IMG/VR virus record: IMGVR_UViG_3300021181_000039
Location: 1-24,568 of that record
From: a virus
Strand: one strand, 5' to 3'
DNA: 24,568 nucleotides
Part shown: positions 1 through 12,907 of the stretch, in pieces
Layout of the letters: each line of letters begins with the position of its first letter
Numbering within the stretch: position 1 is the stretch's first letter
The notes under the pieces: model-generated
Told to the model about the DNA's origin: nothing
What the model saw: the letters and a program-made list of their open reading frames with translations, nothing else
Databases searched by the model: none
Made by a program: the position numbers and the translations under genes

Positions 1-329
1 GTGGTTATAGCCTGCAGCGAACCATTGACATAAGTCAGCGCGTCATTCCCTGTCGTATGCGTCGGACCATTGACTGTCAAAGTCCCATTGACTGTAACAT
101 TCCCCGTCACAGTCTGCGCGCCACTAGCCAGCGTGCCCGTCACATCCAGGTTGTACGGTATGGTCACAGTCGTGCCATCGTTCGTCCAGCCTTTCAATAA
201 CTTCTGCAACAGATTCAACCAGTCTCGCATCTGCGCCCACGTACCTTTGCTAATGTACGCGCTAGTCTTCGAGGGATCCTTCGGCACAGGCTCAGTCCCA
301 ACCGGTGCCGGCGGTAGCGGCTTAGCCAT
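1..329 (-). CDS. Fibre-like virion protein, N-terminal part (cut by left edge)
   Basis: An open frame starts with ATG at 329, overlaps nothing essential (the PurD-like stop lies at 322-324) and continues through the left edge; 109 residues are visible. The start is Pro/Lys-rich and probably disordered, followed by a helix YISKGTWAQMRDWLNLLQKL and then short repeated beta units: TVTIPYNLDVTGTL, TVTGNVTV and NGTLTVNGP, with a final ALTYVNGSLQAIT. Such T-V-x-G-x-L repeats are typical of triple-stranded fibre or tailspike stems. This fits its place at the end of a tail module. The rest is outside the window, so no receptor-binding domain can be judged. Confidence 0.6.
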   Translation of the reverse strand, partial: MAKPLPPAPVGTEPVPKDPSKTSAYISKGTWAQMRDWLNLLQKLLKGWTNDGTTVTIPYNLDVTGTLASGAQTVTGNVTVNGTLTVNGPTHTTGNDALTYVNGSLQAIT

Positions 330-1629
330 TTACCCACTCCTCGCAGTAGCCTTTCTTCTGCAACGCGCTGATGGTATCGGCGAGCTTATGCCCAATGTCG
401 TTCCGGTACAGAGGCGAGTTAGGTATGCGGATGTTCTTCGTCCGCTCGAACGCTCGGTCACAAGCTTCGAGCACATTCCTCCCACGATCCACAACACAGG
501 CAACATAGCAGCCAGCAGTAACAAAGACGTCTTGCTCTTTGAGCTTGTCTCCGACGAGACACTTTCCCGCGCGGACTTGTCCGAGATGCACATGATCCAT
601 GTCCTCTTGCGTGATGTTCAGCAACGGATAGCCTTCGCACAACTCAGGCTCTGCGAAACTTTCGTACGGAAAGGGCTTGATCCCCATCACCACTCCACAC
701 GTATGATCTCTACGCACCTTCAGCGCGTCTTTTCCGTGCACCAAGTCCGCAAAGAATTCCACCATAGGTTGCTTGTGCAAGTGCGTCTGCATAAAAGTGA
801 TAGGCCAACCAAGCCGGGCCGTACACTCTGACGGATGAAGTGGGCCGTGCTTTGGAACCAGCAGACCCATGGCGAAATTCCCAACAAACTTTAACGCATG
901 GAGGGTGTCCGTGAGTGGGAGCAGAAAGTCTTGCGCTAATTTTGAGTCGTCTACATACTTGCATACATTTCCCATCTCGCCAGTGTTAGGCCCGATGCCG
1001 CCCGGCATAAGCTTCTTGTGTTCAAAGTCTTCTTCCCAGACGCCGCACCAGCCGCCAGGACCGAACCAGCCTGACACGCCAACTTCGCCAATCAGGTCGA
1101 GCTTTTCTTGCAAGATGAACGGATAGTTCTTGCTTTGCTTCTTCCACTTCTCCATCATGAAGATCATGTCGTCGGGGCCAGACGAGACATAGCTCGTCGA
1201 CTTGTCCGCGTGGTCATGCAGAGGCTTGCTAACGTAAGTCCCCTTGGTCTTCTTCACATGAGCAATGCCGTCGTCGAGGCTAGTGAAAGACTGGTACGGT
1301 AGACAGTCCATATCCGCGCGCTCGAAGCAATCCATACCGCACTCGCGATCAATCTCCAGCTGTGCCGCGTCCCAGTTGGTACCGAGGATCGGATAGCCTT
1401 TGGCGAAGTAGGCATCCAACTTCCGCATGTACTTTCCCACACCAGTCATCACGATCAGGTCCGCCCAATCCATATGAGCCTCCCAATCGTTTACCCGCGT
1501 GACCAAGCCCTTGCCGATGTTATCACACTTCTGAGGCGATATGAACACCTTGCACTGATGGCCAGCCCACTGGCTCCGCACGGCCATGTCCACACAGACC
1601 CCATCCACATCAATGAACAGAACTTTCAT
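322..1629 (-). CDS. PurD-like ATP-grasp ligase (GAR synthetase homologue)
   Basis: PurD joins phosphoribosylamine and glycine using ATP in purine synthesis. The 435-aa protein is full length and shows the family's order: an N-domain start MKVLFID, an ATP-binding strand with Lys135 (TYVSKPLHDHADKST), ILQEKLDLIGEVGVSGWF, then GGIGPNTGEMGNV at 210-222, close to the PurD signature GPNTGGMG. It continues with PSECTARLGWP (compare EFNCRFGDPE) and a C-domain with VFVTAGCYVACVVDRGRNVL, EACDRAFERTKNI and YRNDIGH. Odd points: the GDPE acidic residue is Trp275, and the Asn before the conserved Arg is Thr270, so the metal/ATP site differs from bacterial PurD. It overlaps the ejection gene by ATGA and lies far from any other purine gene seen here. 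Substrate may not be phosphoribosylamine. Confidence 0.85.
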   Translation of the reverse strand: MKVLFIDVDGVCVDMAVRSQWAGHQCKVFISPQKCDNIGKGLVTRVNDWEAHMDWADLIVMTGVGKYMRKLDAYFAKGYPILGTNWDAAQLEIDRECGMDCFERADMDCLPYQSFTSLDDGIAHVKKTKGTYVSKPLHDHADKSTSYVSSGPDDMIFMMEKWKKQSKNYPFILQEKLDLIGEVGVSGWFGPGGWCGVWEEDFEHKKLMPGGIGPNTGEMGNVCKYVDDSKLAQDFLLPLTDTLHALKFVGNFAMGLLVPKHGPLHPSECTARLGWPITFMQTHLHKQPMVEFFADLVHGKDALKVRRDHTCGVVMGIKPFPYESFAEPELCEGYPLLNITQEDMDHVHLGQVRAGKCLVGDKLKEQDVFVTAGCYVACVVDRGRNVLEACDRAFERTKNIRIPNSPLYRNDIGHKLADTISALQKKGYCEEWVNG

Positions 1630-4052
1630 TGCGTATCCTTCTTGCGTTTGTTGTCCCGCGCGATAGCCTTGTTCCGCGCGAGGACTTCTTTCTGGCTAGG
1701 CAGGTTTATACCGACCTGCGCGGCAGCGACTTCGCCAAGGCCCTTTCGCCCAGACACCACCTGCTCAGCCAATCCAGCCGGTGGAATCACCTCGCCAATG
1801 TAGCGTCCAATAGCCTTGCCTGTGTTCAGCTTTTCCCCTGTGAACGTATCTTTGCCGGTCATGATCTCAGTCGGTATGCGTAGCGCAGGACTAAGGCTCA
1901 ACGTCGATCCCATCAATTGCGAGTAGCCACTCTGCCCCGTGCTAAACTTATAGATCGCCTGTGGCACCGAGTCCGCGCCGAAGCGCCTGATACTCGCATC
2001 GTTATTCCCAGTCACTTTTCTAATAGCTGCATCCATAGCCGGGTAGATCACCGCGCTCGAGACAGCCAACATCGCCATCTGATCCAACGCATGTGCTCTA
2101 TCCGCAATGCTCGAATCTCGTCCGATCAAGTCCTTGACCATGTTGCCATACGAGGCAAGTCGACCGTAGTCATACCGCGCGAAGGTAGGCACAGTCTGCA
2201 TGATCTGCGACAGCGCCCGCGAGCCAGCGATCTCACTCGGCAGCCGGTAGTTCGGTATGTGCTTCTCGACTTCCTTGATAGCCTCTGGCAGACTCTGCCC
2301 TGCGTCCATATGAGTCCGGTAGGCGTGCATCATAATCACGTCGTTCCAGGACCAGAGCGACTTCGCGCTATGTGCGTAGATAGCCTTGACCATCGCCGCG
2401 GGATTAGCATACCCCCAAGCCTTAGCTACCCCAGTCATCTCAGGCGCCGTACCCAGTTCCTTCGCCATGTTCTCAGCAAAGTTCCTCGTAGCCAGCGCAG
2501 GGTACATCAGTCCCGCGCCGGACTTGATCGCTTCCCGATACAGCGGCGACATGGTCATCACATCATTGTGAGCCGCTATCGCCGTCTTCATCGTACTCGG
2601 TAAGTCGACTGTCAACGCCTTCAAGTTCCCTACCAACCCACCCTCGATCAACTTATGGTCGAGAACGTTCATCACGTGCGGCAGTGGGTTCCAGAACAAC
2701 GACCCTACCGTGGCTCTTGCGACGTTGTTGAGCACCGCGAACCCACCCGTATGCGCCGGGCCTGAGAAGTCGTCGAGTACATTAGCGACCTTCGCATCGA
2801 ACTTATATCCATGGAGCTGAGGAATGTTGACTTCTCTATAACCCCCTGGTGCCTCTTTACTAGGCGCGACAACGACAGAGTTAAACTCTGGCGAGTGTTT
2901 AAGCTGCTCGAGAAACGACGCATTGTGAAGAGCCTCGCTCAAATTAATATTTCCCTGGATCGCGCTAACCAGTGGATCATGGTGATAGCGCAATGGCGTA
3001 TTCGCCTCAATCGCCTTGGTTGTGCTATCCGTTAATGAGTACTTGTTCCCCATAAACGTAACTGATTTGTCCTCCAGATCCTTAGCCGAAAGTTTCCCAC
3101 TGCCTGTAATCTTACCGCCTTGATATACTTGAAACGAATTATTGTTCTTTGACTGCACGATATGTCCAGTCTCTGTGCCAGAGTCATCGACCATGCCAAA
3201 GACTTTTCTAGCCTGCGCTTCCGGCGCATACGTGCTGATGCCTCTCGGTTTTCCTTGAGGCACGACGCTTTGGATCGTGTCAACCAGCGAGCTCTTGCCA
3301 ACGGGCACACGGGATATGTACTTCTCCACGTCAGGGCCAACTTGGACTCCTAGCACACGAAGCTTTTGGAGCATGACTTTGTTCTTCGCCATGATCGGCT
3401 CGACGGCCTTCTCTTTCAACTCTTGCGCGCGAGGCGAGAGTTTAACCGAAGGGTCCTCGAACGAATGGTAAATATTCTCAGCGTGCTCTGCCCAGTCCTT
3501 CGGTAGAAAGTTTTTCACATCTGTCAACCACTGCATGCGCAAGCCCGTGTTGGTTTTGCCCAGAGTGTATAGGCTGTCGGACAGCTTGCCAATGGTGTCC
3601 CCTGCGACTGAGGTCACCGCTTGCAAGCTCGACACACCAGCCGAACGGTTCGTCACCGCGCTGATCGCTGCCTTAATACCTTTGAGTGGCCCTGCCACAT
3701 CTCCCATAGCAAAGCCCATTGACATCTTCTCAGCCGTCGGCAATTCCTTTTGAAAGTCCGAGTTGACCTTCGCCATTATATCTCGCTTTCCTCCTCCGAG
3801 ATCATTGACGTTTCTTTGCACGTCGCCCGGGCTTGGCGGATTAGGCTTAGCAATCGCAGGGCTCGCAAGCGCTTCTTTTTCTTCTGCTTTTGGAAGTGCT
3901 GCCTTTGACTGTCCAAGTGGGCTTTGCGTTTGCTTTTGGTCATTGCCTCCTCCGAAGAGGGAAGACACAAGAACGGCTTTGCTACCGGGAGTAGGCGGTA
4001 GTGGAGGTGTATCGGTGTTCGCAGGTTGCGCGAAGGCGTCGTTGATATTCAT
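1626..4052 (-). CDS. Large internal virion / ejection protein candidate 3 (808 aa)
   Basis: The 808-aa product is the largest of the three ejection-type genes. The first 90 residues are Pro/Lys/Gln-rich and disordered. After that come helical regions (including FLPKDWAEHAENIYHSFEDP and VMLQKLRVLGVQVGPDVEKY), a short beta-rich insert near residues 310-350, and a long amphipathic helical part with FAVLNNVARATVGSLFWNP, which could touch membranes. The C-terminus is basic. No lysozyme or transglycosylase motif is seen. P22 gp16 (about 609 aa) occupies the same place and helps DNA cross the envelope. The ATG overlaps the stop of the 413-aa gene, and the stop overlaps the PurD-like start. Function is inferred from order and composition. 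Confidence 0.65.
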   Translation of the reverse strand: MNINDAFAQPANTDTPPLPPTPGSKAVLVSSLFGGGNDQKQTQSPLGQSKAALPKAEEKEALASPAIAKPNPPSPGDVQRNVNDLGGGKRDIMAKVNSDFQKELPTAEKMSMGFAMGDVAGPLKGIKAAISAVTNRSAGVSSLQAVTSVAGDTIGKLSDSLYTLGKTNTGLRMQWLTDVKNFLPKDWAEHAENIYHSFEDPSVKLSPRAQELKEKAVEPIMAKNKVMLQKLRVLGVQVGPDVEKYISRVPVGKSSLVDTIQSVVPQGKPRGISTYAPEAQARKVFGMVDDSGTETGHIVQSKNNNSFQVYQGGKITGSGKLSAKDLEDKSVTFMGNKYSLTDSTTKAIEANTPLRYHHDPLVSAIQGNINLSEALHNASFLEQLKHSPEFNSVVVAPSKEAPGGYREVNIPQLHGYKFDAKVANVLDDFSGPAHTGGFAVLNNVARATVGSLFWNPLPHVMNVLDHKLIEGGLVGNLKALTVDLPSTMKTAIAAHNDVMTMSPLYREAIKSGAGLMYPALATRNFAENMAKELGTAPEMTGVAKAWGYANPAAMVKAIYAHSAKSLWSWNDVIMMHAYRTHMDAGQSLPEAIKEVEKHIPNYRLPSEIAGSRALSQIMQTVPTFARYDYGRLASYGNMVKDLIGRDSSIADRAHALDQMAMLAVSSAVIYPAMDAAIRKVTGNNDASIRRFGADSVPQAIYKFSTGQSGYSQLMGSTLSLSPALRIPTEIMTGKDTFTGEKLNTGKAIGRYIGEVIPPAGLAEQVVSGRKGLGEVAAAQVGINLPSQKEVLARNKAIARDNKRKKDTQ

Positions 4053-5290
4053 TCTATCGGCTCCACTTCAGTCGCGCTGGTTTTCTTGTACAGCTTGCCA
4101 TTGATCATAACCGAAGAGCCAATGGCTACCTTCGCCACGTCCGCGGGGCTGTTGGCAGTCGGTGGCAACGGTGGCTTGCCGGGAGTGCCTGTGCCGCCGG
4201 TCTTAGCCTGGCGCGGAGCCAGCGTCGAATCCGTCGACTTCCACGGGCCGAAACCAGACGTGGTTGACGTCACTCGCTTGCTGATATCACCCTTGACCTT
4301 ATCAACTTCGTTCATGAAGTCGTCCGCGCTAGGCAAGTCACCAGGTTTCTTTACTCCTTTGGCCAGCCTGGACCGCGCGCTCAGTACCATCTCCGCGGCA
4401 ACAGCCTTCTTCTGGTTGTCTGGCAAGGTGCTCAACACAGGGTCAGTCGCGATCAAGCTTTCCACATAGGTCTTGTCCGCGGCAGTCGGTCGTCCGGCTT
4501 GCGCTTGGGCTTTGGCCAGATCCATGTCGGTCGAACGTTGGAACCCTGCAGCGGCACGAGCATCCGAGCGGGCTTTATAATCGAGGTTGGACTTCTCGAC
4601 CGAATCCCTCAGCGCAAGCGACTGACCTTGCAAGTTTATCTGCGCGCCCTTCAGCCCTTCATCAGTCCGGTCATGCCGGACCTTCTCCAAGTAGTTAGCC
4701 TGCGCTTGGTCTTCTGTAACATTCTGGTGCGCGGCAGTGAGCTTTTCGCTATACGTCTGCGATCCCTTAGCAAGCTGTTCGAGCTTCGGCGTATCTTGGT
4801 CCAACTGACCCGACAATTGAAACTTAGTAATATCCACGCCTTGCGCGGCCAGTGTCTGCAACGCGGCGGTGTACCCTGCCTGATCCTTCACCGCGCCAAA
4901 CAGATCCCCCACAGCCTTCATCTGCGCGGCACCAGCAGCCAGTTGATCCTTCTTCCTCGTAGCGACTTGGTCTCGCAGCGTGCTGGCTTTGGTAGCCCAT
5001 TCGAGACTAGCTTTGGGATTAACCGGCGCGAGAGCCTGCGCCATCTTGTCCATCCGCGCAGCGTTCTGCTCACTTGGATCATCACCGGCACCAGCCGTAT
5101 CCGGTGTCGTCCCTTGTTGCCCCCACACCTGCGCGGCAATTTTGCGCTCTTGAATCTGGTTCTGTATATCGATCAGCTGTTGCTGCCCTTGCAGCTGGTG
5201 AATAACCAGATCCTGCTTGGCCAACTTCGCTTCAGCATTCTGGCGCACAGCATCCACGTACCCTTGGTAGATCGGAATAAACGAGGCCAT
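4049..5290 (-). CDS. Internal virion / ejection protein candidate 2 (helical)
   Basis: The 413-aa product is predicted helical over most of its length, with Ala/Gln/Lys-rich heptad-like stretches (AEAKLAKQDLVIHQLQGQQQ; LAKGSQTYSEKLTAAHQNVT; NQKKAVAAEMVLSARSRLA) and a disordered Pro/Thr-rich region near the end. It begins MASFIPIYQGYVDAV. It is the second of three consecutive large genes downstream of the tail hub, as gp20 is in P22. A role in delivering DNA across the cell envelope is inferred from this order. I see no enzymatic motif. It begins two bases after the upstream stop and ends with an ATGA overlap to the third gene. Confidence 0.65.
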   Translation of the reverse strand: MASFIPIYQGYVDAVRQNAEAKLAKQDLVIHQLQGQQQLIDIQNQIQERKIAAQVWGQQGTTPDTAGAGDDPSEQNAARMDKMAQALAPVNPKASLEWATKASTLRDQVATRKKDQLAAGAAQMKAVGDLFGAVKDQAGYTAALQTLAAQGVDITKFQLSGQLDQDTPKLEQLAKGSQTYSEKLTAAHQNVTEDQAQANYLEKVRHDRTDEGLKGAQINLQGQSLALRDSVEKSNLDYKARSDARAAAGFQRSTDMDLAKAQAQAGRPTAADKTYVESLIATDPVLSTLPDNQKKAVAAEMVLSARSRLAKGVKKPGDLPSADDFMNEVDKVKGDISKRVTSTTSGFGPWKSTDSTLAPRQAKTGGTGTPGKPPLPPTANSPADVAKVAIGSSVMINGKLYKKTSATEVEPIE

Positions 5291-6628: not shown

Positions 6629-6946
6629 TCAGCCCCTTTCAAGTGCTACGTCGTCAGCGTCGTCCACGCCGTGGATACAGAACCAAACAATATCTGATAT
6701 CGCCGTGATGCGGTGTTCGACTCCCGCGGGAACCGTAATCGCATCACCTGACTCGTACCACTCTACTTCGCCGCCGTCGTACTCAACCTTCACTAGCCCC
6801 GTGCACAGTATGCTATAGTGATCATACGTGTGCTTGTGCGAGCCTATCACTCGTCCCGCTTTCGCCTTCATCCGCCTCATGTACACTGGGTTCCCCGGCG
6901 TCGGGAAGAAGTGCATCACGCTCAGTTCCTCGTCCAAGGTTTTCAC
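6629..6946 (-). CDS. Small single-domain cupin
   Basis: The start is GTG at 6946, chosen because AGGAG lies 8 nt upstream; upstream in-frame starts lack a ribosome site. The 105-aa product carries both cupin motifs. Motif 1 has Gly31, His37-x-His39, His43 and Gly50 with exact canonical spacing, except that His43 replaces the usual Glu. Motif 2 has Gly67, Pro73, Gly75 and His78, with the last Asn absent. Four His could bind one metal. Small cupins may be dioxygenases, isomerases or ligand sensors, and sequence does not say which. It overlaps the oxygenase gene by 125 nt, so the two are probably made together. It ends one base before the next ATG. Confidence 0.78.
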   Translation of the reverse strand: MKTLDEELSVMHFFPTPGNPVYMRRMKAKAGRVIGSHKHTYDHYSILCTGLVKVEYDGGEVEWYESGDAITVPAGVEHRITAISDIVWFCIHGVDDADDVALERG

Positions 6947-7520
6947 GTTTGAATCTCCTCTCATAGTCGTGTACTCTGAGGCACACACACAGGACTATAT
7001 AATCCTGGTCCGACTCGTTCACAACCCCATGCGGGACAGTATTAACAAAACGATGCACATCACCAGGGTTATCCCTAATAGACTCATCGTCATATACGAA
7101 AGCTGCTCCGACAGCGGACTGGATGCAGATGTTAAACTTATCATAGTAGTCCACATGCCAACTCCTATCTATATGCTTGTGAATCTTGTGGCCGGGCTTC
7201 ACCCGCCACAGTATCACGTCGCCAATCCGCTCGGCTTCCACGCACCGAGCCAGATCAAAGACCAGCTTTCTGATGGAAGGTAATGCATAGTAAGCTGGGT
7301 ACCAGATTGACTCATGTTCGGAATTGAAGTTCGTCCAATCACCTGACTCCACGAAAGGTGTTTTATCATTGAGACGGATCCACATATCATCAGAGTCTCG
7401 GTGTGGCCCGGCTTCGCTGAGTCTTTCTTTGTCGACATTCCAGAGCTCCGGATGCTGGTGGATCTCAAGGGCAAGGCTCGTGACGTTCCAGCCTTGGGCG
7501 ATCTTCAAAAAGTTTTTCAT
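6822..7520 (-). CDS. Fe(II)/2-oxoglutarate oxygenase-like protein, AspH-type
   Basis: Aspartyl/asparaginyl-hydroxylase-type enzymes use Fe(II), oxygen and 2-oxoglutarate to hydroxylate side chains. The 232-aa protein has the fold's markers: WRVKPGHKIHKHID with a His116-x-Asp118 pair, the strand KFNICIQSAVG, and GDVHRFVNTVPHGVVNES with the probable distal ligand His164. The usual 2-oxoglutarate arginine about ten residues after the distal His (Arg735 after His725 in human AspH) is missing; Asp173/Tyr174 occupy that place. The substrate is unknown. The last 41 codons overlap the next gene and read as a low-complexity tail. The gene starts directly at the hub stop. Local GC is low (about 46% over 7021-7200 by hand count) beside GC-rich neighbours, hinting at separate acquisition. 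Confidence 0.75.
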   Translation of the reverse strand: MKNFLKIAQGWNVTSLALEIHQHPELWNVDKERLSEAGPHRDSDDMWIRLNDKTPFVESGDWTNFNSEHESIWYPAYYALPSIRKLVFDLARCVEAERIGDVILWRVKPGHKIHKHIDRSWHVDYYDKFNICIQSAVGAAFVYDDESIRDNPGDVHRFVNTVPHGVVNESDQDYIVLCVCLRVHDYERRFKRENLGRGTERDALLPDAGEPSVHEADEGESGTSDRLAQAHV

Positions 7521-10388
7521 CTAGGCTACTCCGGTCTCGATTTCAATTTCCAATGCCTCGAGTCGCTGAGGCGTGAAGGCGGTGTGGCGGAGCTGGAAGG
7601 CTGTGCGAGTGGTCATGCCGAGCGCGCTGGCAAACGGCCACGAGGCTTGCATCCAGATCATGCGGTAAGGCATCCAGTTTTGGTAGTCTGTCTCAGACCG
7701 ACGGACCATGACATTGCTTGAGGTAGCATCGCCAACAATGCTGACGCGGCGAATGAACTTCTTCGCCATCACACCACCGTCCCAGCGCGGGGTCACGACG
7801 TTGAAGTCTATTGGATTCCCATTGTCACTGCCGGTAGCGTAGCTCAGCGCATAGACATTGCCATTGCTCGGGTCTTGCATGTAGCCAACGTCGGTCAACT
7901 CCGCGCTATCTATCGGCAAGAACGGGCCGGTCTGCCAGCTTTGTACAGTAGCATAGGTCTCTGGCGTAGCCGTTGCCGAAATGACATACTGGAAAGTCTG
8001 CGCGCCAGTCACCGTTACATTGAACAGTCCTGTATATTGCGGCTGCACAGTGTTCGAAATAACCACCGGGTCTCCATCCTGCAGACCATGCGACAACGGC
8101 GCGGTGCTGGCCAGTGCTAGCGCGTAAGTCGAGCTGCTCAACGGCGCGACACTAATCGACGTCACAGTAACTGGCGCGGCCGGAGTCGAACTCCACCATG
8201 TGTACCAGTCTTGCGAACCAAAGTCATACACCAGTGTAACACCTGTTGTCAACAAAGTCAATACATATAACGGATGACCGAAGTGAGTCGTGGCAAAGGA
8301 CTGGACCAGAGTGAGTGGATCGTTTTGAATGATCCGGTCGACAAACGGAGTCGACACTACCACTGGCGTATAGCCTTGCATCACATATACCTTCGCGCCC
8401 TCTGTGCTCGTCTGTCCCACCCAGATCACAGAGCCTTCCATCTCACAAATGCTTCGACCGACGGCACAACCGACTTGATAAGCCAATGTCGAGTTCGCGC
8501 TAAGCGGAGACCCAGGTGCCGCGTTAGCATTGTCGTAGAAGAACTCACACGACCACTGCCCGAAGCCAACCAAGTACGGTCCGACCTTGGCAATACCCAC
8601 ACCGCCGTCTGGCTCGTTCTGAATCGCGATTTCGTTCAGCGCGGTCCAGTTCGTCGGATCGTTTAGGTTAGAGCCCCAAATTTTCCCATTGGGGTCCATG
8701 ACGTAGAAGGTGGTATCGAGGTAAACCAAACCATAGACTGTAACTGCGGGGTAATTTGCACTGGTGATTCGATTAAGAGAAGCGAGTGCGGCGCTGAAGT
8801 AGTAACCTTGGTGCGCAGACTTGAACACAAGGTATGGAGTGGCAAGGCCATTTGATGTCTGGTTAAAGTTGTAGAATTCATTCGGCACAGTCGGGCTCAG
8901 CGGATAGCTAGTCGAGCCAGCTTCCAGTGCCCACACGTCGTTGTAGTAAGTGTTTGCGGTTGAGTTGTAGCCGCCGATAATAAAGATATCTCCATACACC
9001 ACAGGTATCATGCTGCGTGTTGCGTACCCTGGCGCGGAAGTGAACAGCGTCCAGGTGACTCCATCCGGAGCAGTCCAGATTTCATTCGACTGCGCGCCGT
9101 TGATGTACGTGGTGAAGAAGTAATACAGTCCACTCGTTGGGTCATACACGACTTCGCCAGACCTGCCACCACTCACAGACGTGCCATCCATAAATGCATA
9201 GCCGACTGCGGGAATGCTCGTGCCCTCGTTGTTGCAGACGAAAGTGCAAGGCGTGGTATAGCCTGAACCGACTGTGGTAAACGTAACAGTCTTGACTTCC
9301 GAGTAATCATTGAAGATGTTATTGCTTTCCCCTTCTGTGCTATCGGTGTAAGCATACGCGGCAGCTCCACCACCGCTGGCTCCGTTCGTCACAGTCACGC
9401 CGGTGCCATACACTGCTCCAATGCCGATCGACGTGATCACAGTAAAAGGATACATCGGACAGCCGCCGACGTTGAACGGATTCGTGTTCACGCGAGTCCA
9501 CGTCACTCCATTGTTCGTCGAAGCCCATTGGTCTGACACCGCGTTCTGGAACGTCGTGTTCGTAGTGCCGAAGCCCATGAAGCCACCGAGCACATACATC
9601 GTCGTCCCGACGTTGAAGAATCCAAACCTCCGCCGGCCGATCCAAGGGCAGCTTGGGTTCTGCACGGTCCAGTTGGTTCCGTCTGGCGTCGTCCATACGT
9701 CATGCCACAGGCCTGAATTCGGCACACCGCTGTTAGGTCCAGGGTAGCCCTGGCCACCAGCGAGGTAGATCGAGCCGTTGAACAACTGGACTTCAAAGTC
9801 TGTTCTTCCGCCCCATGGAGCATTGGCTGTAACCTCTGTCCACGTTACGCCGTCTGGTGTGCTCCACACATCGTTGAGGTAAGTGCCGGCCGAGTTCAAC
9901 CCGCCCATCAGAAACAGCACGTTGTTCAGCACAATGGCTTTGCCGTACGAACGGTTTGCTGGCGCGCCGCTTAGCGGATTCCAAGTAATCCCATCAATCG
10001 AAGTCCAAGCGTCGGACAGCACTCCACTAGCATTCACGCCTCCGAACAGGTACAACTGGCCAAGAAACCCTGCAACAGCAGCGCCTTGCCTAGCCGAGAA
10101 CGCGGCGTTGCTTTGGATCTGTACCGGCGCGATAGTGGCATCACCGCCATACTGGTTTAGGAAGTCTGACGAGACTCCGTACAAAGTCCCATTGTAGTTA
10201 TAAATCCCTTGGCCAGTCCCACCTTCGCCTTGGAAGGCCAGGCTATACCCTGCACGCTTCACCGCGCGCATGCCTATCTGACCTTGCTCAATCAGCCCAT
10301 TGACGAGCTTCGAGTCATAGTTCAATGTCGCATCTCGACTGTTGATCTGCTCAATCACCTGCAGCCGTAGTGGTTGCATGTCAGCCAT
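7521..10388 (-). CDS. Tail-hub / packaged-DNA stabilisation protein, P22 gp10-like, with kelch insertion
   Basis: P22 gp10 joins the adaptor ring to the tail needle and seals packaged DNA. The 955-aa product has a gp10-type start (NSRDATLNYDSKLVNG, then MRAVKRAGY), and from about residue 500 a gp10-type body with YLVGFGQWSCEFFYDNA, LAYQVGCAVGRSICEMEG, SVIWVGQTSTEGAKVYVM and a C-terminus with FQLRHTAFTPQRLEALEIE. P22 gp10 is about 472 aa. Two inserts account for the excess: residues about 97-490 are kelch-like blades, and about 735-815 form another beta domain containing LSHGLQDGDPVVISN. Removing both leaves roughly 480 residues. The gene follows the gp4-like adaptor with one shared base. The hub assignment comes from motifs and synteny and is fairly strong. 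Confidence 0.8.
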   Translation of the reverse strand: MADMQPLRLQVIEQINSRDATLNYDSKLVNGLIEQGQIGMRAVKRAGYSLAFQGEGGTGQGIYNYNGTLYGVSSDFLNQYGGDATIAPVQIQSNAAFSARQGAAVAGFLGQLYLFGGVNASGVLSDAWTSIDGITWNPLSGAPANRSYGKAIVLNNVLFLMGGLNSAGTYLNDVWSTPDGVTWTEVTANAPWGGRTDFEVQLFNGSIYLAGGQGYPGPNSGVPNSGLWHDVWTTPDGTNWTVQNPSCPWIGRRRFGFFNVGTTMYVLGGFMGFGTTNTTFQNAVSDQWASTNNGVTWTRVNTNPFNVGGCPMYPFTVITSIGIGAVYGTGVTVTNGASGGGAAAYAYTDSTEGESNNIFNDYSEVKTVTFTTVGSGYTTPCTFVCNNEGTSIPAVGYAFMDGTSVSGGRSGEVVYDPTSGLYYFFTTYINGAQSNEIWTAPDGVTWTLFTSAPGYATRSMIPVVYGDIFIIGGYNSTANTYYNDVWALEAGSTSYPLSPTVPNEFYNFNQTSNGLATPYLVFKSAHQGYYFSAALASLNRITSANYPAVTVYGLVYLDTTFYVMDPNGKIWGSNLNDPTNWTALNEIAIQNEPDGGVGIAKVGPYLVGFGQWSCEFFYDNANAAPGSPLSANSTLAYQVGCAVGRSICEMEGSVIWVGQTSTEGAKVYVMQGYTPVVVSTPFVDRIIQNDPLTLVQSFATTHFGHPLYVLTLLTTGVTLVYDFGSQDWYTWWSSTPAAPVTVTSISVAPLSSSTYALALASTAPLSHGLQDGDPVVISNTVQPQYTGLFNVTVTGAQTFQYVISATATPETYATVQSWQTGPFLPIDSAELTDVGYMQDPSNGNVYALSYATGSDNGNPIDFNVVTPRWDGGVMAKKFIRRVSIVGDATSSNVMVRRSETDYQNWMPYRMIWMQASWPFASALGMTTRTAFQLRHTAFTPQRLEALEIEIETGVA
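8919..10100 (-). other. Inserted kelch-like beta-propeller domain within the tail hub
   Basis: This part of the hub gene (residues about 97-490) carries repeated blades. Each has an aliphatic strand ending in Gly-Gly (116-117, 162-163, 211-212, 268-269, 472-473) and a D-x-W plus DGxTWT segment (126-136, 173-183, 230-240, 286-297, 436-446, and a shortened last one near 483). The fourth-to-fifth step is interrupted by about 110 residues, with Gly/Ala-rich and Thr-rich strands. Kelch repeats normally form four- to seven-bladed propellers that bind proteins or sugars. The number of blades here, five or six, is estimated by eye. Confidence 0.75.
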
Positions 10389-11116
10389 TAATGCCCCCTG
10401 CGATCAAACTTGATGCGGAGTTCTACGTCTTGCTCTTGGCCCCACTCTTCAATCAATTCGAGCTGACCAATGGCGCGCTTCTCTATTCGAGCATAACGTT
10501 CGCTCGACACAGGGTATTGGTTGGCGAGCTCATACGACAGGCATTTGATGAAAGGCCAGTAGTACTCCGCCGGAAAGTCAATGACGTCCGACAGGTTGAC
10601 TGCGTTCGTCAGCGGTTGCAGGGCCTTCAAGTATGCCGTGAACACACTGTTGCTCGGTATCGGGTAGAACGTTATACGAGAATTCGGACTGTTCAATTCA
10701 CTACCCAGTGGTTCGAACCAGTACTGCGTCGGTACACCAAACGAGGTATACTTGCCACTCAGCTCGACGAACTGTTCGCGCGCAAGTGGCCACAGGTCAA
10801 TGGACTGCTGAGAGATAGTATTCACAATCTCAGCCTCAGTCACACGCAAGACCCTGTCCGTAATCACCGCTCCTGGTCCACTTGCTGTCGGGCCGATGTA
10901 GTAAGTCTGTGTGTTAGCAACAAACGGTACTTGAATCGTAGACACCTTCCACAGTGCGATGCCACTTGCCATCCAGGTCTTGAGTAAGAGGTTCAGCGCG
11001 AAGCTGATATTCGTGTAGTCATTCGGATTAGGCTGCGACGACTGATCCAACGCTCCCAGCTCCAACATCGTCGCGATGATGATCTGGTTCTGAGTGACTG
11101 GGAAATCGGTGGCCAT
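10388..11116 (-). CDS. Head-tail adaptor, P22 gp4-like
   Basis: P22 gp4 binds under the portal and closes the filled head before the tail hub attaches. The N-terminal pattern fits that family: FPVTQNQIIIATMLELGAL, a short polar turn, then YTNISFALNLLLKTWMASG, matching the two-helix motif of gp4-type adaptors. The middle is beta-rich, and the last 60 residues form a long helical region (PFIKCLSYELANQYPVSSER onward). At 242 aa it is longer than P22 gp4 (about 166 aa). Its stop overlaps the start of the gp10-like hub gene (TAATG), the same gene order as P22 gp4 followed by gp10. The call uses pattern and synteny. Confidence 0.8.
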   Translation of the reverse strand: MATDFPVTQNQIIIATMLELGALDQSSQPNPNDYTNISFALNLLLKTWMASGIALWKVSTIQVPFVANTQTYYIGPTASGPGAVITDRVLRVTEAEIVNTISQQSIDLWPLAREQFVELSGKYTSFGVPTQYWFEPLGSELNSPNSRITFYPIPSNSVFTAYLKALQPLTNAVNLSDVIDFPAEYYWPFIKCLSYELANQYPVSSERYARIEKRAIGQLELIEEWGQEQDVELRIKFDRRGH

Positions 11117-11595
11117 CAGATGTAGCTCCAGTAGATATTGAAGTTCGTCGTCGCGCCGTCGCCGATGGCAAACTGAAAAGGCGTAGTGAACTTTTGCTGC
11201 GCGCCAGAGTTATGCAGCCATGTCCCTGTCCACTGGATTGCTGCACCACTCGCTGGTGGGCTGGTGAAGCTAATGGCTCCGTAGGGAAGCTGGATTGTAT
11301 ACGCAGCCGTCAGCACACCGTTGATATAAACACTCGGCGTGCCTACGACAATCTCCCCAGTCGGCACCGGTATGTCGCCGCTGAATGTCGGCGTAGGCTC
11401 CGGGTTCGCGTACGGCACCGACATCTGGTCCTTCACCCCACGCACAAAATCCTGTGGCTGCCTCGGTTCCCAGTCCTCCGGACACACCCACACATTGTCC
11501 CACCTCAGTTTCATATCTGTGTTCTTGTACTTGAAGCCACAGACAACACACAGCATGTTCCAACCGCCGGGTTGCCAGAAGTCTGCGCGTCCCAT
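11116..11595 (-). CDS. Zinc-ribbon plus beta-domain structural protein
   Basis: The ATG at 11595 has GGAG 5 nt upstream and follows the adhesin stop by one base; an upstream TTG is not needed. The 159-aa product starts with a small metal-site candidate: Cys16-x2-Cys19 (CVVCGFKYKNTDMK) and Cys38 in VWVCPEDWEPRQPQDF. I recall this short phage domain (CxxCGF...W...VCP.D.E.RHPQDF) as common in tail or head-tail genes. The C-terminal half (about 85-159) looks beta-rich, with VYINGVLTAAYTIQLPYGAI and DGATTNFNIYWSYI, like an immunoglobulin-type or strand-rich virion domain. It lies just before the gp4-like adaptor and shares a TGATG overlap with it. A particle role is likely. Confidence 0.75.
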   Translation of the reverse strand: MGRADFWQPGGWNMLCVVCGFKYKNTDMKLRWDNVWVCPEDWEPRQPQDFVRGVKDQMSVPYANPEPTPTFSGDIPVPTGEIVVGTPSVYINGVLTAAYTIQLPYGAISFTSPPASGAAIQWTGTWLHNSGAQQKFTTPFQFAIGDGATTNFNIYWSYI

Positions 11596-11596
11596 T

Positions 11597-12907
11597 TCAT
11601 CTCCCGTTACCGACGCCAATCAGCGGCAGATAGCTGTAGTGAATCGGTGGGGCTGCTGTCGGGGCTAATGGCCCTGCAGTTTGCCCTTGGAACAATGTTG
11701 CAAATTTAGCGTACTGGCTAAGCCTAGACTGCGGTGGGAGGTCAAATACACAGTTAGCAATATTGGGTGGGACTATGCTCGCAGCCGGTGGCCCTTGCAC
11801 CCAGCCACTGTAGTCATACCTGCGCCTCAATGATTGCATGGTCTGTGGAGGTAGCTCAGTCCATACACCAGCCCCCATTATGTCGGCAGCCCTGGGCTCT
11901 TGCGACCACCCGTCCCATACTGTACGGTTAGCAGGATACTTCGCGCGAGGCGGCAAGTCCGTTGACGTACAGGTAAAAGCTATTGCATTGTTCGGCATTC
12001 TCGGACTGACTTGCGTGCCTTGGTACTGAGTCCAATTCGTCCCTGGCCTCGTCAGCCTCGCCCACGGAAAGTTCGGTACAAGCGCATCAGTCCAGTTCGT
12101 CCCAATGCCAAGTACAGCCGGCGTCCAAGTGAGCCTGATTTGACCTCCCGCGCCTGGCCCACCAACGCCATTAGGACCACCATTATCTCCGCCGCCACCA
12201 CCCCCGCCAGGAAACCCACCGGTACCGCCAGTATTGCCAGAACCATTGTCCGCAAAGGAACCCCCACCTCCACCACCGCCATTAGCATTTGCCCCTCCTG
12301 TGCCACCGTTCTTCGAACCGCTTGTCCCGCCTGTACCACCGGCGCCACCAGCCACGCCATTATCGCCAGCACCGCCAGCACCGCCTGTGTCATTGCCTAC
12401 ACCAGTCGGCGGCGTAGCTCCTGCCTTACCAGCGCCATCTGGTCCACCAGCTCCACCGCCTCCGCCGCCAGGACCACCGAAGCTTGGATCATCACCGCCG
12501 TTGCCACCTGCGCCTCCGGCAAACTTCGTAGTGCCTACAGCGCCTGTGGTCGTGCCACCAGCACCACCGGTGCCGGCTGCTGTGCCGCTGAACACACCAC
12601 CGAGGCCTGGGTTCGATCCGACAGTAGAGGTGGATAGACTCGATCCATTGAACCAAGTCGCAGTGCCTGGCGCGCCACTTGCTCCGTTGTGTCCCGCGCC
12701 TCCTGCGCCGATTTGAATCGGTATGGAGCCGCTTAACCCCACCACATTACTAACCGACGAATAGCCTCCGCCACCCCCTGCGCCACCTCCCAGTGAATCA
12801 TCTCCTTCCCCACCACCGGCACCGGCCCAAGTCTCTATCTGATTCGTGCTGGTCCACGTGCCAGATAGTGTAACCGATGTTCCAGTAGTGACGATTAGAA
12901 CTGTCAT
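11597..12907 (-). CDS. Glycine-rich adhesin/fibre-like virion protein
   Basis: The 436-aa product has a beta-strand N-terminus (MTVLIVTTGTSVTLSGTW), then residues about 29-255 dominated by Gly, Ala, Asn, Ser and Thr in runs such as GGGAGGGGGYSS and GGNGGDDPSFGGPGGGGG, and a non-glycine C-terminal region of about 180 residues. Gly-rich regions of this kind occur in phage glycine-rich-domain proteins; in the phage S16 gp38 adhesin such runs form packed polyglycine-II helices that present host-binding loops. The C-terminal part has repeated Trp/Pro segments (TNWTDALVPNFPW, RTVWDGWSQEP, YSGWVQGPPAAS). It sits in the tail module just before the adaptor genes, so receptor binding is plausible but inferred. 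Confidence 0.75.
   Translation of the reverse strand: MTVLIVTTGTSVTLSGTWTSTNQIETWAGAGGGEGDDSLGGGAGGGGGYSSVSNVVGLSGSIPIQIGAGGAGHNGASGAPGTATWFNGSSLSTSTVGSNPGLGGVFSGTAAGTGGAGGTTTGAVGTTKFAGGAGGNGGDDPSFGGPGGGGGGAGGPDGAGKAGATPPTGVGNDTGGAGGAGDNGVAGGAGGTGGTSGSKNGGTGGANANGGGGGGGSFADNGSGNTGGTGGFPGGGGGGGDNGGPNGVGGPGAGGQIRLTWTPAVLGIGTNWTDALVPNFPWARLTRPGTNWTQYQGTQVSPRMPNNAIAFTCTSTDLPPRAKYPANRTVWDGWSQEPRAADIMGAGVWTELPPQTMQSLRRRYDYSGWVQGPPAASIVPPNIANCVFDLPPQSRLSQYAKFATLFQGQTAGPLAPTAAPPIHYSYLPLIGVGNGR
12143..12823 (-). repeat. Glycine-rich coding repeat region
   Basis: This part of the adhesin-like gene encodes residues 29-255, with many imperfect GGN/GCN codon runs. It reads on the opposite strand as long proline runs, which explains a 160-codon Pro-rich open frame there. 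Such DNA can gain or lose units by slippage or recombination, which would change the number of glycine strands and host-binding loops. That possibility is inference. Confidence 0.7.

Follow-up and report, generated by a model that had tools for sequence, protein, structure and literature searches.

A kelch propeller at a recurrent insertion site in the P22 gp10-type tail hub of an environmental virus

The tail hub protein of an environmental virus carries a kelch propeller, predicted to be six-bladed, between its N-terminal segment and its conserved body, at a recurrent site (site A) that in related hubs takes unrelated domains as well as a gene break; kelch is one cargo of several. The DNA is IMG/VR record IMGVR_UViG_3300021181_000039, positions 1 to 24,568 (the whole stretch analysed, called the window below), and the hub gene lies at 7521..10388 on the minus strand. 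It encodes 955 aa of a gp10-type tail hub (stabilization protein, head-closure Hc3; PHROG 578) with a kelch insert. We propose, with a probability of roughly 0.6 for the explanation as a whole, that the kelch domain is an outward-facing, exchangeable recognition module grafted into a P22 gp10-type hexameric hub. In short-tailed phages, host recognition is usually ascribed to fibres and spikes, and the hub is regarded as a conserved DNA gate. Should hubs themselves mount recognition domains that can be exchanged, a gene that bears on host range has been missed in predictions for many uncultured environmental phages.

The preliminary description of this DNA had reported a gp10-like protein of 955 aa instead of the usual length of about 472, and the open reading frame is as described. 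The hub body matches PHROG 578 ('head closure Hc3') over residues 527-729 and beyond (E 8.5e-31). A search of the family profile against the PDB recovered P22 gp10 at 6.2e-8 and, for the body region, also Sf6 gp8, the 'stabilization protein' 9vyg and the 'needle head' protein 7eeq, which we take to be from the cyanophage Pam1. With Phage_stabilise of Pfam, the window protein gave no match at E up to 1; 14 of the 39 members of its alignment do match, the best at 2e-12. An AlphaFold2 model of the full-length protein built with 16 relatives was poor (pLDDT 48.9, pTM 0.40) and was used for Foldseek ranking alone, in which P22 gp10, Sf6 gp8 and another phage tail protein came out on top and the kelch protein KLHDC2 lower. 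The tail adaptor gene (10388..11116, minus strand; Pfam SU10_adaptor, 3.5e-7) is located directly upstream and shares one base with the start codon of the hub, and portal and terminase genes are found upstream of the adaptor, which places the hub in the packaging/tail module. The oligomer is expected to be a hexamer seated between the adaptor and the needle.

Three hub parts could be delimited around the insert, all encoded on the minus strand. Alignment and HMM define an N-module (residues 1-82; 10143..10388) that comprises a platform segment and the first strands of the hub propeller, with R8, R18, N30, K44, R45 and G47 as conserved columns among relatives. Hub sequence resumes with the blade-2 segment (residues 518-542; 8765..8837; blade-2 HMM score 26.8), followed by the hub body (residues 549-955; 7524..8744; PHROG 578), which holds the conserved inner blades and the C-terminal part of the platform. 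With P22 gp10 and Sf6 gp8 (PHROG 578, Phage_stabilise) the protein shares this body, the N-terminal platform segment and the gene position directly after the adaptor. However, P22 gp10 has about 472 aa and is cargo-free at sites A and B (site B being the next inter-blade gap), whereas in the window hub the kelch domain is located at site A.

The kelch propeller spans residues about 88-505 (8874..10127, minus strand), as judged from Pfam, motif statistics, AlphaFold2 and Foldseek. It had earlier been placed at residues about 97-490; the assignment to kelch families stands and the limits are slightly wider. In the insert, Kelch_1 matches at 9.2e-13 (47.9 bits, Pfam cutoff 20.1) and Kelch_4 at 1.1e-8 (35.3 bits, cutoff 21.6), while Kelch_KLHDC2 matches residues 110-301 at 2.2e-12 with 47.2 bits, slightly below its cutoff of 50. 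A phmmer search of the PDB with residues 103-292 likewise returned kelch proteins. Galactose oxidase names among the matches are family labels, and an enzymatic function of the insert was not assumed. The motif W-x(2-4)-[DN]G-xx-W occurs five times between residues 125 and 447, compared to an average of 0.02, and never more than 2, in 20,000 shuffles of the insert. Where five or six blades had been suggested, we count six: the W..DGxxW element is present in five, and YNDVW ends the remaining one (residues 456-500). The flanking hub sequence is back by about residue 518.

When the domain was modelled alone from an alignment of eight inserts, AlphaFold2 predicted six blades (pTM 0.63), with pLDDT mostly 70-87 in blades 1-4 and 45-67 in the regions of blades 5-6; residues 89-92 probably close the ring in this model. 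In a Foldseek comparison of the domain model with the PDB, the best matches were designed six-bladed kelch proteins (SAKe6, E 3.5e-12) and the human kelch domains of NS1-BP (TM 0.76), KLHDC2 and LZTR1. Blade 5 contains a non-kelch stretch of about 105 residues with a GSGY-type element (residues about 306-410; 9159..9473, minus strand), which is predicted to be disordered (pLDDT 22-32 over model residues 219-323). No other part of the domain varies as much; identity to the close relative is 74% here. The repeat signature and the predicted six-bladed fold are those of the KLHDC2, NS1-BP and KEAP1 class of kelch domains, but here the domain is nested in another protein that is itself probably a propeller, has a long insert in blade 5 and shows about 12-25% identity to that class.

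The fusion is found in more than one assembly. A second contig of 50.8 kb encodes a 100% identical hub protein, and a second virus from the same metagenome (L002) has an 85% identical hub with the same kelch insert. Between the window and L002, identity is 97% in the hub core (residues 501-735; dN/dS 0.034), 80% in the kelch domain (dN/dS 0.12) and 71% in residues 736-835, the region of a smaller insert. The kelch domain is under purifying selection, constrained yet faster-evolving than the hub core. That the repeats arose by chance, or that a bacterial kelch gene was fused to the hub by misassembly, might be considered because the source is a metagenomic assembly and the kelch domain has no cultured example. 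We regard this as barely credible, given the same fusion in the 85% identical contig with its dN/dS of 0.12, a motif count far exceeding that of shuffled inserts, and the occurrence in other samples of a further, independent hub with kelch (L025) and of comparable propeller hubs. The two viruses have strongly different glycine-rich appendage genes ahead of the adaptor, of 436 aa in the window (11597-12907, minus strand) and of 711 aa in L002, where the region 865-4784 also holds an additional gene of 592 aa that by eye is possibly glycosidase-like.

To place the insert among related hubs, about 130 distinct environmental hub loci (L-numbers) were collected in two IMG/VR scans, and site spans were measured with anchors on the N-module, blade 2 and the body. 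Among complete fused hubs, lengths run from 477 to 1065 aa, and almost all of the extra length falls at two places in the N-terminal third. Site A, from the N-module to blade 2, spans 20-37 residues when cargo-free and 126-436 with cargo; site B, from blade 2 to blade 3, spans either 5-16 or at least 81 residues. In the window hub, site A is occupied, with a span of 436, and site B, with a span of 7, is empty; blade numbers are assigned by analogy. A single insertion zone was dropped, as the anchors flanking blade 2 resolve two separate sites. Both sites are filled in three hubs with SPRY domains (L014, L016 and L022) and in one with a laminin-G-like domain (L027), and two hubs of the same family are cargo-free (L029 and L034). 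In L038, L063, L068, L139, L146 and others, site B holds 80-360 residues with GxGY-type or CBM_5_12-like repeats, and the repeat length differs between relatives.

The smaller insert of the window hub lies at a third site, C (residues about 736-820; 7929..8183, minus strand), and was delimited by length comparison; in relatives this region is Ig/FCCH-like, with E1_FCCH matched in four of them. Site C measures 105-115 residues in the clade nearest the window hub compared to 31-41 in other hubs, and since the whole nearest clade has it, this insert is not peculiar to the window hub. Removal of both inserts leaves roughly 450-480 aa, close to the 480 or so residues previously estimated. We also asked whether the kelch region might belong to the hub core, or whether the full length might be typical of gp10 proteins. 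Neither is the case: relatives without the insert exist and align almost end to end with P22 gp10 (residues 43-471, 4.1e-23), and the hubs examined from cultured phages or complete genomes have 457-491 aa. No cultured phage of the collection searched carries cargo of the site-A/B type, the kelch domain as a query had no match among cultured phages, and the scan of genome contigs yielded no prophage relative of the hub.

Site A exchanges its cargo. Kelch domains occupy it in the window hub, L002 and L025 (7.9e-17), and sortilin, DUF6242 or weaker-kelch propellers are present in L013 (Sortilin, 6.1e-7), L011 (DUF6242, 1e-7), L012, L096 and L111, where for the N-truncated contigs L096 and L111 the cargo was assigned to site A from C-terminal context. 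SPRY domains are found in L014, L016 (5.2e-9) and L022, Laminin_G_3 in L027 (2.4e-12) and Gly_rich_2 in L045 (1.5e-13). On a tree of 63 hub bodies, propeller cargo requires 5 changes and SPRY 4, at least 3 of each being forced by the starred branches; these counts are approximate, because the tree came from a quick search with SH-aLRT support only, long branches occur in it, and a portion of the cargo labels was assigned by eye. The preliminary description had suggested that the kelch may be a separate surface module. A separate kelch propeller in a gp10-type hub is what we find, now as one cargo among several, and its suggested part in host sugar or partner recognition is plausible. In phages, kelch and DUF6242-type models include virion proteins and auto-processing proteins with intramolecular chaperones, as in tail spikes. 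Tips of tail fibres are known for mosaicism in which the mount is conserved and the recognition module is exchanged. The arrangement at site A is the same in this respect, but the mount is the DNA-channel hub itself and not a fibre.

In 20 loci the hub gene is split, and its ORF begins at the end of site A, immediately ahead of blade 2 (L004 3204-4594; L019 1564-2555; L020 1158-2677; L024 1807-3601; L042, L098, L104 and others). The N-module HMM detected the module in 110 fused hubs and, in these 20 loci, in one or two separate upstream genes. Most of the split loci have a pair of N-module genes, a short cargo-free one of 82-126 aa and a long one of about 240-425 aa with cargo. The same division is present in GenBank, where EBPR podovirus 1 has separate genes for a short N-module (gp31), a long one (gp30) and the body (gp29), and MW202796 has one separate N-module gene. 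No PHROG match was obtained for the N-module proteins scanned (EBPR gp30 and gp31, the short gene of L019 and the long gene of L104). Some 'hypothetical protein' genes beside hubs, such as gp30 and gp31, are thereby explained as hub N-modules. Split and fused states require about 5 changes on the hub tree.

One split group, L019-L028, has hub bodies that are 70-83% identical, with N-module identities of 45-76% (53-74% for the N-modules of the long genes). Its cargoes include SPRY domains in L024 (3e-14), L026 (1e-11) and L028 (3e-15), a propeller-like repeat recognised by eye and without a Pfam match in L020, and sequences that are neither SPRY nor propeller in L019, L021 and L023. A stretch of roughly 60-90 residues is shared by most members, and beyond it unlike cargoes do not align. 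This is the pattern of module exchange known from tail-fibre tips. That site A is a general exchangeable mount, with lineages in which cargo-free and cargo-bearing N-modules, as tandem paralogues, join a separate body, is a tentative reading to which we give somewhat less than even odds. If true, a virion would have a mixed ring, with and without cargo, on a split propeller. Split hubs would also be a natural system in which to study two-chain propeller assembly at a pressure seal.

Hub propellers with inserted domains are already known; what is new here is the insertion site, the cargo classes and the gene fission at the site. In T7 gp12 and the SU10 nozzle, both propellers of seven blades, the N- and C-terminal ends of the chain build the platform that meets the adaptor. 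Blades 1-3 of SU10 point outward from the tail axis, and its DNA channel is lined by blades 4-6 (PMC9509320). For PhiGT1, the conserved part of gp10/tubeB-type proteins was described as lining the inner tube surface (PMC10386132). Given the T7 and SU10 propellers, the core of gp10-type hubs is expected to be a propeller as well, and the kelch would thus be a propeller inserted in a propeller. The crassvirus muzzle gp44 is likewise a seven-bladed hub propeller with inserted domains, and the inserts of T7, SU10 and crassvirus hubs are Ig or barrel domains (nozzle tip, four Ig domains, IG1 and IG2). These inserts are located between blades 2 and 3 or in blade 3, a position that probably equals site B, equated by order and not by structure, whereas the window kelch lies one gap earlier. 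As far as the available portions go, kelch, SPRY or lectin cargo or a split gene are not described for these proteins. In the literature searched, no gp10-type hub with a kelch, SPRY or lectin insert is reported; the three 'kelch' matches checked were to the author name B. A. Kelch and not to the domain.

Sites A and B lie in the variable N-terminal part of the hub propeller, which by analogy with these structures would be its outward half; because the full-length model is poor, the orientation rests on the analogy with T7 and SU10. In the proposed mechanism, site A would be a loop hot spot in the outward-facing N-terminal part of the propeller, with the kelch grafted into it, so that each virion would display six kelch domains around its short tail, beneath portal and adaptor. 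Most likely, they would bind a ligand on the host surface or on a phage appendage during adsorption. The conserved inner blades would go on sealing the DNA channel. Site A would act as a cargo bay with interchangeable contents (kelch, sortilin/DUF6242-type propellers, SPRY, laminin-G-like and glycine-rich domains), and in several lineages, with the gene split at site A, platform segment and cargo would form a separate subunit. The outward orientation, ligand binding and a role in adsorption are what this arrangement suggests for the kelch, and its ligand seems somewhat more likely to be the host surface than a phage fibre.

SPRY and kelch domains bind proteins as commonly as sugars, and docking of a phage fibre is therefore equally compatible with such cargo. 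The site-A domain could then be a dock for a separate tail fibre or tailspike that itself touches the host, with cargo and fibre exchanged together. In favour of such a dock, the hub proteins of T7 and SU10 carry fibre-dock elements on the same propeller, and the appendage gene upstream of the adaptor differs between the two kelch viruses (436 aa in the window, 711 plus 592 aa in L002). However, the same kelch is kept in both hubs despite these strongly different neighbours, and the known dock elements are located towards the propeller's C-terminal end and nearer to site C than to site A (Trp839-857 in SU10). We consider this explanation unlikely, though it is the strongest of the competing ones. 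An identification of site A with the SU10 fibre dock itself was dropped on account of that position of the loop.

A structural role would be another possibility, in which the inserts support adjacent hub subunits or cover the joint between adaptor and hub, thereby stabilising the packaged DNA, and their diversity reflects drift. The inserted Ig domains of the SU10 nozzle touch neighbouring subunits, inserted domains are part of both this nozzle and the crassvirus muzzle, and single N-modules are kept in fused hubs, all of which would fit. Nevertheless, the replacement of whole folds among hubs that are 70-83% identical is more than drift, and the cargo-free L029 and L034 of the same family manage without an insert. 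A structural role is improbable, and an exchangeable recognition module remains our preferred reading of the kelch domain.

Some further genes of the window were recorded. Directly after the hub (6822-7520, minus strand) follows an aspartyl/asparaginyl beta-hydroxylase or cupin-like gene (Pfam 4.4e-5) whose L002 counterpart is 90% identical, an odd location for such an enzyme. In the tail region (322-1629, minus strand), a protein of 435 aa resembles the phosphoribosylglycinamide synthetase C domain (GARS_C 1.3e-6, below the Pfam cutoff). Near the adaptor, a small zinc-ribbon-like protein with the motif CxxC...RWD..VC..DWE.RQPQDF.RG is encoded in the window (11116-11619, minus strand), in L002 (4794-5273) and also in the distant hub locus L005 (2168-2413).
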